64,000 nt of DNA. Source: Chryseobacterium tructae (GTDB taxonomy: Bacteria > Bacteroidota > Bacteroidia > Flavobacteriales > Weeksellaceae). The position numbers and the translations under genes were made by a program. The first letter of the stretch is position 1; each line of letters begins with the position of its first letter. The stretch lies in the NCBI RefSeq assembly GCF_030409875.1, contig NZ_JAUFQR010000001.1, positions 3,472,001 through 3,536,000 on the forward strand. Direction: 5' to 3'. This document shows, piece after piece, positions 14,655 to 50,548 of the stretch. Below the pieces are notes generated by a model. That model was not told where the DNA came from. It saw only the letters and a program-made list of their open reading frames with translations, and made no database searches.

Positions 14655-14711
14655 TTTTGGCTAAAGCCAATCAGATAAGGTAAAAAAATAAAGCGGGCTA
14701 AAGCCCGCTTT
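14655..14711. repeat. Dispersed double-palindrome element, copy A
   Basis: Two palindromes share the core GGCTAAAGCC: TTGGCTAAAGCCAA at 14657-14670 and an AAAGCGGGC-TAAA-GCCCGCTTT hairpin at 14690-14711. The same pair in the same order recurs at 46793-46850 and 49417-49470. The second hairpin also acts as a terminator on the minus strand. The rest of 14583-14733 shows no gene. Confidence 0.8.
14682..14711 (-). terminator. Terminator of the methyltransferase gene, built from the repeat palindrome
   Basis: On the minus strand a perfect 9-bp stem (AAAGCGGGC / GCCCGCTTT, loop of four) is followed by ATTTTTTTA. It lies 23 bases after the methyltransferase stop. Confidence 0.85.
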
Positions 14712-46783: not shown

Positions 46784-46896
46784 GTTTTTAGGTTTTGGCT
46801 AAAGCCAATGGATTGCATATTCATTTATTCGGATGGGCTAAAGCCCATCCCTATTGATGTTGATATCGGGATGGATAATAGATGTTTAACGACAAG
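46784..46896. repeat. Dispersed double-palindrome element, copy B
   Basis: TTGGCTAAAGCCAA at 46795-46808 and GGATGGGCTAAAGCCCATCC at 46831-46850 repeat the GGCTAAAGCC pair. The similarity to copy C goes on through CTATTGATGTTGATATC and TGTTTAACGAC and ends in the ATCTTTTAT from which the tandem array starts. Confidence 0.85.
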
Positions 46897-47015
46897 ATCT
46901 TTTATCTTTTATCTTTTATCTTTTATCTTTTATCTTTTATCTTTTATCTTTTATCTTTTATCTTTTATCTTTTATCTTTTATCTTTTATCTTTTATCTTT
47001 TATCTTTTATCTTTT
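46897..47015 (+). repeat. Heptanucleotide tandem repeat, 17 copies of ATCTTTT
   Basis: Seventeen perfect, uninterrupted copies of ATCTTTT fill 119 bases. The array starts at the end of repeat copy B and stops 12 bases before a TATCTTTG -7 box. Translated, it gives only a meaningless LLSFIFY-type repeat. Uniform arrays of this length are prone to slipped-strand length change. Confidence 0.97.
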
Positions 47016-47027
47016 AATCATAATTTA

Positions 47028-47035
47028 TATCTTTG
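47028..47035 (+). promoter_or_regulatory. -7 promoter box of the fluoride exporter transcript
   Basis: TATCTTTG matches TAnnTTTG. The riboswitch begins about 10 bases downstream. The -33 region would fall inside the heptamer array, which has no TTG. Confidence 0.6.
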
Positions 47036-47044
47036 TAACATCAA

Positions 47045-47104
47045 AAGGAAATGGTGTTCTTCCTTCCCCAACCGCTTTACAAAAGCTGATGACGCCTGAT
47101 TGAG
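47045..47104 (+). ncRNA. Fluoride riboswitch (crcB motif)
   Basis: The leader matches the crcB motif consensus: a GGAA/TTCC stem capped by ATGGTGTTC, a GCTTT-ACA-AAAGC stem (47074-47086), and the conserved 3' segment GCTGATGACGCCTGATTG. The loop GGUGU can pair with ACGCC to form the required pseudoknot. It lies 32 bases before the start codon of a CLC-F-type gene, the classic target. Fluoride binding should turn the exporter on. No separate terminator is obvious in the short 3' part, so control may act on translation. Confidence 0.9.
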
Positions 47105-47136
47105 AGATTATTAAACAATAACTAATCAGGATTATT

Positions 47137-48444
47137 ATGTCAAAAAACCAACGAACACTTGTTAAAAAAACAATTTTTCACACTCAATTTTTCTTTAGAA
47201 AATTTCCGGCACTGCCTTATATTGGCAAATGGCTTCTAATCAGTATCATTATTGGAGCTTTGGCAGGAAGTGCCTCTGCTGGCTTTTTACAATCGCTGGA
47301 ATGGGCGACAAATTTTAGAGAAAGCCATTTATGGCTAATTGCTTTGCTTCCTGTGGCTGGTTTTTTAATTGGGCTTATCTATTATTATTGGGGAAAAGAT
47401 GTGGAGGCTGGAAATAATCTTCTGATTGATACTATTCATGATCCTAAAGAGATTATTCCATTCAAAATGGCTCCTTTCGTTTACTTAGGAACCATTGCCA
47501 CTCATTTTTTTGGAGGTTCAGCTGGTCGTGAGGGAACAGCTCTTCAGATGGCTGGTGCTATTGCGGATCAACTTAGTAAACCTTTTAAGCTTGATAAAAA
47601 TGAAAGGAAAATATTAATTATCTCTGCCATTGCTGCCGGATTCGGTTCTGTGTTTGGAACTCCTTTGGCAGGTGCTGTGTTCGGACTTGAGGTATTTCTG
47701 ATCGGAAGGATACGTTATAATGCCATATTCCCAGCTTTTGCCTCAGCAATTCTTGCGGATTGGGCTACCAACCTCTGGAATGTAAAACATACTCACTATC
47801 ATATTGATTTTATCCCTAAACTAGAGTTTCTCCCTATCTTATATAGTATTTTAGCAGGTATTACTTTTGGTATTTGTGCTGCAGCATTCAGTAAAATCAT
47901 TCATTGGGCAGGGTCTATTTTTAAATCGAAGATTAAATATCCACCGCTTCGTCCGGTTATTGGAGGAATTATTATTGCCCTTGCCGTTCTGCTCATGGGT
48001 ACAACAAGATATATCGGACTGGGAGTTCCGGTGATTCTGGAGTCTTTTGAAAAGCAGCTCCCATTCTATGATTTTGCCATAAAAATGATTTTTACCATCG
48101 TTACCCTTTCAGCAGGTTTCAAAGGTGGTGAAGTAACTCCATTATTTTTTATTGGAGCAACATTAGGAAGTGCATTATCCCTATTTATTCCATTACCTTT
48201 TGGATTATTGGCAGGAATGGGATTTGTGGCTGTATTTGCAGGAGCAACCAACACTCCATTAGCCTGTATGTTAATGGGAATTGAATTATTTGGGGCAGAA
48301 TGTGGTATTTATATAGCTATTGCCTGCGTGGTTTCTTATCTTCTTTCGGGGCACAATAGCATTTACACTAAACAAAAGATTGGTGAAGCTAAAAATAGAA
48401 GGTATGAGAGCCAACAGGATAGATCTATTTCCGATTTTCTTTAA
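47137..48444 (+). CDS. CLC-F-type fluoride/proton antiporter
   Basis: This is a CLC-family transporter of 435 residues that would expel fluoride. Ordinary CLC proteins have GSGIP and GREGP at the anion site. Here the corresponding places read EAGNNLLID and GREGTALQM, the GNN and GREGT variants that mark fluoride-specific CLC-F proteins. Other core helices (AAGFGSVFGTPLAGAVFGLE; GGEVTPLFFIGATLG; GATNTPLACMLMGIELFG) are well kept. The fluoride riboswitch in its leader agrees. An LysR-type gene follows 92 bases later with its own promoter. Confidence 0.93.
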   Translation: MSKNQRTLVKKTIFHTQFFFRKFPALPYIGKWLLISIIIGALAGSASAGFLQSLEWATNFRESHLWLIALLPVAGFLIGLIYYYWGKDVEAGNNLLIDTIHDPKEIIPFKMAPFVYLGTIATHFFGGSAGREGTALQMAGAIADQLSKPFKLDKNERKILIISAIAAGFGSVFGTPLAGAVFGLEVFLIGRIRYNAIFPAFASAILADWATNLWNVKHTHYHIDFIPKLEFLPILYSILAGITFGICAAAFSKIIHWAGSIFKSKIKYPPLRPVIGGIIIALAVLLMGTTRYIGLGVPVILESFEKQLPFYDFAIKMIFTIVTLSAGFKGGEVTPLFFIGATLGSALSLFIPLPFGLLAGMGFVAVFAGATNTPLACMLMGIELFGAECGIYIAIACVVSYLLSGHNSIYTKQKIGEAKNRRYESQQDRSISDFL

Positions 48445-48536: not shown

Positions 48537-49412
48537 ATGTTCGATTACAGGTTAAAAGTTTTCCATACCGTAGCTTCCAGACTGAGTTTTACTAAAGCTT
48601 CTGAGGAGCTTCATATTTCGCAACCGGCAGTTACCAAGCACATCAAAGAAATTGAAGTTCAGTTGAGCACCAAATTATTTGACAGAAAGGGAACTTCCAT
48701 ACAGTTGACGCAAAGTGGTAAAATCCTGTATGAATACGCTGAAAAGATCAGAAATATCTATCGTGATCTGGAATTTGAAATCAGTCAGATCAACCAACAA
48801 CATAAAGGAAAACTAATCATTGGAGCCAGTACCACTGTAGCCCAGTATATTTTGCCTGAAATTTTGGCCAAATTCAATGCTTATTATAAAGATATTAAAA
48901 TTGAACTGTTGACTGGGAATACTGAAGCCATTTCCACTCTTTTAAAAGAAGAAAAAATCGACCTTGGTATTATTGAGGGGGAATCACAATCTTCTTATTT
49001 TGATTATAAAGCTTTTAAACCCGATGAAATTGTTCTGGCCGCCAAGTCAGATCATCCTCTGGCTCATAAAATGTTAAATGTAAAAGACCTCTATCAGCTG
49101 AATCTTATTTTCCGTGAACAAGGTTCAGGAACTCTTGAGTATATCCAAAACCGATTAAGAGAAAAGGGAGTTAACATTCATGAGTTGAATACCGTTATTC
49201 AGTTGGGAAGCAGCGAGAGCATCAAAAACTATCTTCTTCATTCGGATTGTATGGCTTTTCTTTCTATCAGTACCATTTTAAATGAGCTGAAAAATAATAT
49301 TCTTACTGTTATTGACATTAAAAACTTCAATATTGAAAGAGATTTTCATTTTATCCTTCCCAAAGGAGAGCAATCAGAGCTTATAGAACTCTTTTTAAGA
49401 TTTGCAGAGTAA
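48537..49412 (+). CDS. LysR-family transcriptional regulator, YeiE-like by context
   Basis: This is a 291-residue LysR regulator. The winged helix-turn-helix is about 1-60 (YRLKVFHTVASRLSFTKASE; HISQPAVTKHIKEIE). The effector domain is about 90-290 (LIIGASTTVAQYILPEILAK; DLGIIEGESQS; FREQGSGTLEYIQNRL). It directly precedes a YeiH-family gene on the same strand, as YeiE does YeiH in enterobacteria, so it probably controls that gene. The effector is unknown. The stop codon abuts repeat copy C. Confidence 0.9.
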   Translation: MFDYRLKVFHTVASRLSFTKASEELHISQPAVTKHIKEIEVQLSTKLFDRKGTSIQLTQSGKILYEYAEKIRNIYRDLEFEISQINQQHKGKLIIGASTTVAQYILPEILAKFNAYYKDIKIELLTGNTEAISTLLKEEKIDLGIIEGESQSSYFDYKAFKPDEIVLAAKSDHPLAHKMLNVKDLYQLNLIFREQGSGTLEYIQNRLREKGVNIHELNTVIQLGSSESIKNYLLHSDCMAFLSISTILNELKNNILTVIDIKNFNIERDFHFILPKGEQSELIELFLRFAE

Positions 49413-49526
49413 TACGTTTTGGCTAAAGCCAGTGGATCTTTTTTATTTTTTGGCGGGCTAAAGCCGACCTTTATTGATATTGATACCCCAATACAAAATA
49501 GTTGTTTAACGACTTTATCTTTTATA
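49413..49526. repeat. Dispersed double-palindrome element, copy C
   Basis: GGCTAAAGCC occurs at 49421-49430 and 49456-49465. The tail TTATTGATATTGATA, TGTTTAACGAC and TATCTTTTAT matches copy B, but here the last heptamer is not expanded. It fills most of the 201-base gap between the LysR and YeiH genes. A hairpin-like TAACTTTTAGTTA follows at its end. Confidence 0.85.
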
Positions 49527-49613
49527 ACTTTTAGTTATCCGGTATAACAAAATACAATTTACTTTGTAATAACATATTTACGAATTTTGAACCAGATTTT
49601 AAAAGTTCGAAAT

Positions 49614-50548
49614 ATGAAAGATTTCATTCAAAATGAAACGACACGAAAAGTAATTTTTATTGGATTGGCAGTTTTATGTCTTACTCCATTCATTTCTTCT
49701 CCCATTGCTCTGGCATTAGGTTTTGCCCTAGCTGTTTTTATGGGAAATCCATTTGAAAAACATTTGCATCAATATATTCATCTGTTGTTACAGATCTCTA
49801 TTGTCGGATTAGGTTTTGGATTAAAACTGGATGAAGCACTTCATGCCGGAAAAACAGGATTAATGTTAACGGTTGTAAGTATTGTTACTGTAATGGTTCT
49901 GGGATATTTTTTAGGAAAGATCTTCAAGCTTGAAAGACCACTATCCTACCTCTTATCTGCCGGAACGGCTATCTGTGGTGGAAGTGCCATTGCTGCGGTT
50001 TCTCCTATCATTAAACCCACGACCAAACAAATATCTCTGGCTTTAGCAATTGTCTTTACATTGAATTCTATTGCTTTATTTGTATATCCTGCAGTCGGAC
50101 ATCTGCTGAATCTTTCTCAAGAACAGTTGGTTTATGGTGTGCTGTGGGAATTCATGACACTAGTTCTGTGGTAGGTGCTGCCAGTAAATATGGTGATGAA
50201 GCCTTAAAAATTGCCACTACGGTTAAATTAGCTCGTGCTTTATGGATTATTCCGGTTTCCCTGATCACCATGTTTATTTTTAAAAGTAAAGATTCAAAAA
50301 TTAAAATTCCGTGGTTTATAGGGTATTTCATCTTAGCTATTTTACTGAATACATATTTTCCTATTATGGATACTTTCAGTACGGCTATTACTTCTTTAGC
50401 TAAATCCGGATTGAATCTGACCCTGTTTTTTATTGGATCTACTCTTTCTATTCAGACTTTAAAATCAATAGGTTTTAAGCCCTTGCTTACCGCTGTACTG
50501 CTTTGGGTAACCATCAGTATTGGAAGCTTGTTATACATCATTCACTAA
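49614..50548 (+). CDS. YeiH-family putative sulfate/anion exporter (frameshifted)
   Basis: This is a membrane protein of the YeiH (UPF0324, PSE) family with about 10 helices. The signature parts are VGLGFGLKLDEAL, SAGTAICGGSAIAAVSPII and IHDTSSVVGAASKYGDEAL. The frame breaks near 50146-50148; one more G (GGGG) would join YGVLW to GIHDTSSV and give 311 residues. This is the one break in a G-run. I start it at ATG 49614, not the TTG at 49587. The transported compound is not firmly known for the family. Confidence 0.85.

Follow-up and report, generated by a model that had tools for sequence, protein, structure and literature searches.

What is a long, uniform heptamer array doing directly ahead of a fluoride riboswitch? 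The question is raised by a stretch of 64,000 nucleotides from Chryseobacterium tructae (contig NZ_JAUFQR010000001.1, positions 3,472,001 to 3,536,000; the whole stretch is called the window here), in which 17 perfect ATCTTTT units, with one further matching base at 47016, stand upstream of a gene for a CLC-F type fluoride/proton antiporter. Tandem Repeats Finder (TRF) gave the array 17.1 copies, 100% match and a score of 240, the runner-up among 30 rows scoring 48. Twelve bases separate the array end from a -7 box, TATCTTTG, and the box is followed by a fluoride riboswitch that scored 50.3 bits in Rfam, above the gathering score of 34. The best matches of the downstream open reading frame (ORF) in the PDB were 6d0j, 6d0k and 6d0n, which are CLC-type fluoride/proton antiporters. 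A first-pass annotation of this DNA had described 17 perfect copies placed 12 bases ahead of the -7 box of a riboswitch-controlled CLC-F gene, and both parts of that description were borne out. The reading advanced here, to which a probability of roughly 0.68 is given, is that the array forms the variable 3' tail of a short non-coding element which is dispersed through the genome and at CLC-F replaces the -33 half of the promoter.

A pattern of three consecutive ATCTTTT units gave 85 matches in the whole genome and its reversed control gave none, indicating that the tandem 7-base unit occurs far beyond chance. ATCTTTT arrays were located at nine places, with 4 to 24 units each, and the same palindromic body was found ahead of eight of them, the exception being the array in locus L036. 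A search of the genome with this body, in which 40 of the 96 candidates were scored, returned at least 46 matches, including a second copy in the window (Table 1), and exact sites for its first hairpin (hairpin 1) numbered 53. Aligned by eye, the body runs from TAGG through a hairpin with GGCTAAAGCC, about 20-30 bases and a second hairpin with GGGCTAAAGCCC to CCTA. In some copies an extension ending in GTTTAACGACAAG follows, and then heptamers; others lack an array or carry a different one, for example ACTTTTT. All five exact matches to GTTTAACGAYAAGAT in the genome lie at heptamer arrays, as do both of the one-mismatch matches examined, out of three, and two-mismatch matches were no commoner than in the control. 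The complete element would then begin with a palindromic doublet, continue with an extension whose end is the tag, and finish in a variable number of heptamers. The first-pass description of the array was correct but incomplete, as the array continues an element that begins at about 46789 and eight more arrays lie in the genome outside the window.

Two simpler views of the array were rejected on these grounds: that of a stand-alone microsatellite, because body and tag are common to other copies, and that of an array peculiar to the fluoride gene, because ATCTTTT arrays stand at nine places in this genome and at other loci in other genomes. Exceptional folding of the body was also rejected, its fold energy being unexceptional by itself (DNA fold z -1.35, with 18 of 200 shuffles equally stable). 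Seven of the nine arrays precede the start of a gene that runs in the same direction, and the other two adjoin convergent genes. Besides CLC-F, the neighbours presumably include genes for a polyphosphate-kinase-like protein, an isoaspartyl peptidase and a lipoprotein; no common theme was seen among the genes.

The promoter of CLC-F was then compared across 70 upstream regions, comprising the 30 best loci and 40 lower-ranked ones; the rest of the 147 genomes with a CLC-F match, mostly more distant, lie outside this set. Of the 70 regions, 29 contained a perfect run with period 7 and three or more units (3.9 to 21.1 units), and by rotation the unit was ATCTTTT in 26, ACTTTTT in two and ATCTTGT in one. 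Within stretches of up to 600 bases, GGCTAAAGCC was found upstream of CLC-F in 25 of the 29 regions with an array versus 2 of the 41 without one. One of the four array-bearing regions that lack it (L103) is cut by a contig end, and both array-free regions that have it contain decayed units. The box TAnnTT(T/C)G stood ahead of the aptamer in 69 of the 70 regions. Between array end and box lay 3 to 14 bases, or 31 and 32 bases in two broken arrays.

The upstream half of the promoter differed between the two groups. The trinucleotide TTG, which we take to be the -33 element of this phylum, ended 14-24 bases ahead of the -7 box in 17 of the 41 promoters without an array versus 1 of the 29 with one, and in that single case the TTG belongs to the repeat unit itself. 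Several array-free relatives have TTTTTTGAAAAACA and then TATATTTG in common. In the window the array spans about -25 to -143, the -33 region included, and the TTTT of the last-but-one ATCTTTT unit ends 19 bases ahead of the -7 box. The available part of a start-site map for Flavobacterium psychrophilum places the motif TAnnTTTG at -12 to -5 (PMC9723704); TATCTTTG matches this motif, which puts the predicted transcription start of CLC-F near 47040, where the aptamer begins. These comparisons suggest that in many Chryseobacterium species the element has come to lie upstream of CLC-F and taken over the -33 half of its promoter. The -7 box, riboswitch and gene would have been left intact, with a T-rich unit at the -33 position.

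The tail also appears to change quickly. In a tree of this one gene, with 11 of 27 inner branches well supported, the supported sister pairs carried 17 and 13, 13 and 4, and 21 and 5 units, and in one case a decayed tract and 7 units; a weakly supported pair carried 13 and 12. Array-free species are interspersed with array-bearing species in the tree, a pattern in keeping with recurrent gain or loss of the array or with exchange of alleles. In the pair L107/L119 both members have five units, ATCTTTT in one and TACTTTT in the other, with a near-identical body before them and identical sequence after. Here one tail seems to have replaced another, presumably by exchange between dispersed copies. 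Among the 30 best and 80 further CLC-F loci compared, most of the latter from genomes named Chryseobacterium, no array-bearing pair of near strains was found; 17 of these 80 matched other loci of the set in array length and, over the coding stretch compared, at 100% identity, and one more identical pair consists of two array-free loci in one genome. At the isoaspartyl peptidase promoter, arrays of 5.6 to 16.3 units were present in 10 of 30 orthologs. One locus there (L228, genome G015) has an array that abuts a -7-like box with no spacer, the joined sequence reading TATCTTCG, and the others at this promoter differ.

In a survey of perfect arrays that span 24 bases or more and have periods 4 to 12, period 7 accounted for six of the 11 found in 600 kb of C. 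tructae sequence and for six of the eight found in 400 kb of a one-contig relative (G054), with many different units. The surveyed C. tructae stretches were not chosen for heptamers; two of them form an inverted duplication, and some arrays were counted twice. In a broad survey, too, most genomes had 7-base units as their commonest class, according to the accessible portion of a paper citing it (PMC4679880, citing Mrazek et al.). The dominance of period 7 fits that survey and points to a slippage preference, and the tail may gain and lose units by replication slippage together with exchange between dispersed copies.

All 23 heptamer arrays scored for orientation, nine of nine in C. tructae and 14 of 14 in G054, lie on the strand of negative GC skew, which by the usual convention is the discontinuously made strand. 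In G054, for which skew was taken from 20 sampled stretches, 40 of 42 exact hairpin-1 sites are on this strand. Apart from two strays, the sites swap strand between 0.58-0.69 Mb and between 3.06-3.09 Mb, inside the intervals (0.56-0.86 and 2.80-3.10 Mb) within which the skew changes sign. The body matches on contig 1 of C. tructae follow the same rule in 43 of 43 cases (minus strand to 2.53 Mb, plus strand from 2.83 Mb), and the exact hairpin-1 sites in 41 of 49 cases on contig 1 and two of three on contig 3, a single site on contig 2 having been left out of the strand score. One 20-kb sample near 2.9 Mb in this genome had positive skew among negative neighbours. A control palindrome beside two REP-associated tyrosine transposase (RAYT; REP, repetitive extragenic palindrome) genes of C. 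tructae lay on the negative-skew strand at 9 of 26 sites (p 0.17), and at 5 of 18 when up to two mismatches were allowed; it is near-symmetric, which makes its strand call less certain, and one site matched both strands. Note that the small binomial p-values of the element overstate the case, because loci are common to both genomes. HUH transposases are known, from the part of a review available, to use the lagging-strand template (PMC6006769), though none is linked with this element. The bias could arise if insertion or slippage takes place at the replication fork, such that the element enters or persists on one strand.

At least three ATCTTTT units in a row were present in 84 of 148 sampled Chryseobacterium genomes. 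An overlapping family-wide sample gave 57 of 246, which divides into 52 of 99 in Chryseobacterium and 5 of 147 in other genera when the genus is counted from the table. No match turned up among recorded plasmid or phage sequences, and carriage on these was rejected. For nine other genomes, 19 of the 21 arrays among the matches listed were paired with C. tructae loci by eye on protein starts, and 10 of the 19 stand at loci where C. tructae also has an ATCTTTT array. Two loci (L209 of G142 and L222 of G009) have another array ahead of the ATCTTTT one, with an 8-base unit and ATGTTTA, which suggests serial array birth at one place.

Several of the results weigh against the array being the tail of a promoter-replacing element. 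A recognisable hairpin was near just 6 of the 19 arrays from other genomes; array and body are thus separable, and the array may have a history of its own. Lack of TTG is not peculiar to array promoters either, as 24 of the 41 array-free ones likewise had none in the tested stretch or could not be tested. Hairpin-1 sites on the opposite strand amount to 8 of 49 on contig 1 and one of three on contig 3, seven of the eight on contig 1 lying within its first 0.3 Mb or last 12 kb. Finally, a cognate RAYT was sought at the five Y1 transposase loci of this genome (~3.2 kb each), and none held an exact GGCTAAAGCC or GGCTTTAGCC.

It could be that the arrays are a neutral by-product, in that 7-base slippage is favoured, intergenic DNA tolerates the result and its length has no effect on the gene. 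This is a serious contender, if somewhat short of even odds. It would account for the dominance of many-unit heptamer arrays in stretches not chosen for them, for the 41 of 70 CLC-F orthologs without an array, for the change of units and for the two of nine C. tructae arrays at convergent gene ends. It sits less easily with the position of the other seven upstream of co-directional gene starts, with the recurrence of arrays at the same loci in other genomes and with an array that stands in place of a -33 element. A role in transcription could also be the reason for the array being there, if the T-rich tract substitutes for the -33 or upstream element and is kept at certain genes on that account. 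Arrays do recur at the same loci in different species, and they end ~10 to 12 bases ahead of a -7-like box at the CLC-F, isoaspartyl peptidase, NAD(P)-binding protein and lipoprotein genes, the last three boxes having been read by eye. However, the distances are larger elsewhere (27 at an extracytoplasmic function (ECF) sigma gene), two sites are convergent, 20 of the 30 isoaspartyl peptidase orthologs are array-free and the units drift, and such a selected module is judged unlikely.

More improbable still is phase variation of fluoride resistance, by which changes in unit number would switch CLC-F between cells. A uniform promoter tract that varies between species invites the idea, and at Haemophilus influenzae hmw1A more (ATCTTTC) units mean less transcript and protein, as reported in the portion available of PMC8262952. 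Arrays of the same family stand at unrelated genes, however, and the riboswitch already gates CLC-F; moreover, the array's end sets the distance to the -7 box, and changes in unit number leave it unaltered. The first-pass annotation was right to caution that a change in length would act through upstream DNA, and its expectation of a slippage-prone length agrees with the spread of unit numbers between the 29 array-bearing CLC-F orthologs. Its view of the array as a device of the fluoride gene did not hold for a repeat family found at nine places in the genome and in 84 of 148 genomes of the genus, with two of the nine arrays beside convergent genes. It had also seen a ladder of promoter-like elements in the units: each is literally one base from a -7 box, but none carries the final G, and the ladder is therefore without evidence. 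The mechanism proposed there is partly supported, in that a tract of changeable type does lie in the promoter, but as part of a genus-wide element family.

If the array is the tail of a dispersed element, as preferred here, its effect on CLC-F would be to tune promoter strength modestly and by degrees, not to turn the gene on or off, since length changes affect upstream DNA only. Graded tuning by unit number is plausible by analogy with the (ATCTTTC)n tract of H. influenzae hmw, the best functional precedent. A wider proposal, in which an element on one replication strand with a hypermutable tail lands at promoters, takes over their -33 region and thereby plants portable, length-tunable promoters genus-wide and so acts as a mobile maker of contingency-like loci, is tentative and on balance doubtful.

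Table 1. Features of the element, its copies and the CLC-F locus, in window coordinates.
Feature	Position	Strand	Evidence
Palindromic doublet, TAGG to CCTA, REPIN-like	46789..46853	+	Body matches, alignment by eye, DNA fold
Hairpin 1 of doublet	46795-46808	+	
Hairpin 2 of doublet	46831-46850	+	
Extension common to array-bearing copies	46854..46883	+	Comparison of copies
Tag GTTTAACGACAAG adjoining array	46884..46896	+	5/5 exact GTTTAACGAYAAGAT matches in genome at heptamer arrays
17 perfect ATCTTTT units	46897..47015	+	TRF, sequence
-7 box TATCTTTG	47028..47035	+	TAnnTT(T/C)G in 69/70 orthologous promoters
Fluoride riboswitch aptamer RF01734	47038..47105	+	Rfam
CLC-F type fluoride/proton antiporter gene	47137..48444	+	ORF, PDB matches
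Second element copy, after LysR gene, one ATCTTTT unit left	49394..49523	+	74% identity over query 10-144
Third doublet copy in window, without array	14655..14709	+	

The second copy in the window precedes a YeiH-like gene, and genome G085 (L210) has 13 units at the same place. The YeiH-like frame is split between overlapping ORFs at 49587-50174 and 50144-50548, and the gene seems to be broken by a frameshift, unless the sequence contains an error. Elsewhere in the genome, loci L039 and L163, at opposite ends of contig 1, have (GATA)n arrays of about 11 to 27 units and hairpin-1 sites of like spacing but opposite orientation; these contig ends are probably an inverted duplication.

Repeats in promoters tend to be regarded as inventions of individual loci. 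In this case a single type of repeat is found at the same promoters across many species; it has a common body, keeps to one strand and turns over quickly in length. If length alters transcription, the genus offers a natural promoter-length series at several genes, in which the origin, spread and tuning of repeats could be followed. The strand bias, in turn, offers a way to study how short palindromic elements with no known enzyme enter or persist in replicating DNA.

A search of the literature, with most subscription journals outside it, found no description of this element; its parts nevertheless resemble several known systems, which are compared here as far as the available portions of the cited papers describe them. 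The closest tract is the (ATCTTTC)n of H. influenzae hmw1A/hmw2A (PMC8262952), whose unit is one base apart from ATCTTTT and which is likewise a uniform promoter-region tract of similar length; in both systems the last unit overlaps an upstream promoter element. The hmw tracts, however, belong to two paralogous adhesin loci (PMC8262952), whereas here the tract is the probable tail of a dispersed element at many genes. At hmw the promoter in use lies ahead of the tract, which is transcribed as part of the leader, and the effect of unit number has been measured (PMC8262952); at CLC-F the tract lies upstream of the -7 box.

In its body the element is like REPs, REP doublets forming hairpins (REPINs) and bacterial interspersed mosaic elements (BIMEs), which are short palindromes with many intergenic copies (PMC6006769, PMC3733652, PMC2817692); the extragenic position was seen for the element copies that were read and not scored for all. 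Like a REPIN, it has two inverted palindromes with short tags at the outer ends, TAGG...CCTA in most copies by eye. Unlike REPs and REPINs as these sources describe them, its tag is TAGG (again by eye) and not GTAG or CGTC, and it has a heptamer tail. That these are REPs moved by the RAYTs of the same genome was rejected: the RAYT flanks hold other palindromes, and the tested one had no significant strand bias. Two near-identical tandem REP-associated transposase genes (L080 and L082, near 2.178 and 2.180 Mb) are each flanked by the palindrome CGAGCATCTTGCTCG.

Long simple sequence repeats (SSRs) with the 7-base unit TAACTGA, known from Beggiatoaceae, Cyanobacteria and some Bacteroidetes, are also intergenic, often upstream of genes and patchy in distribution (PMC4679880). 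Their unit is another one, they stand just before start codons with a suggested translational role, and the portion of that paper available mentions neither a palindromic body nor a strand bias (PMC4679880). The strand bias itself resembles that of the architecture-imparting sequences (AIMS), which is also tied to replication; AIMS are 8-base words, however, whereas the sequence found here is an element of ~65 bases with a repeat tail.
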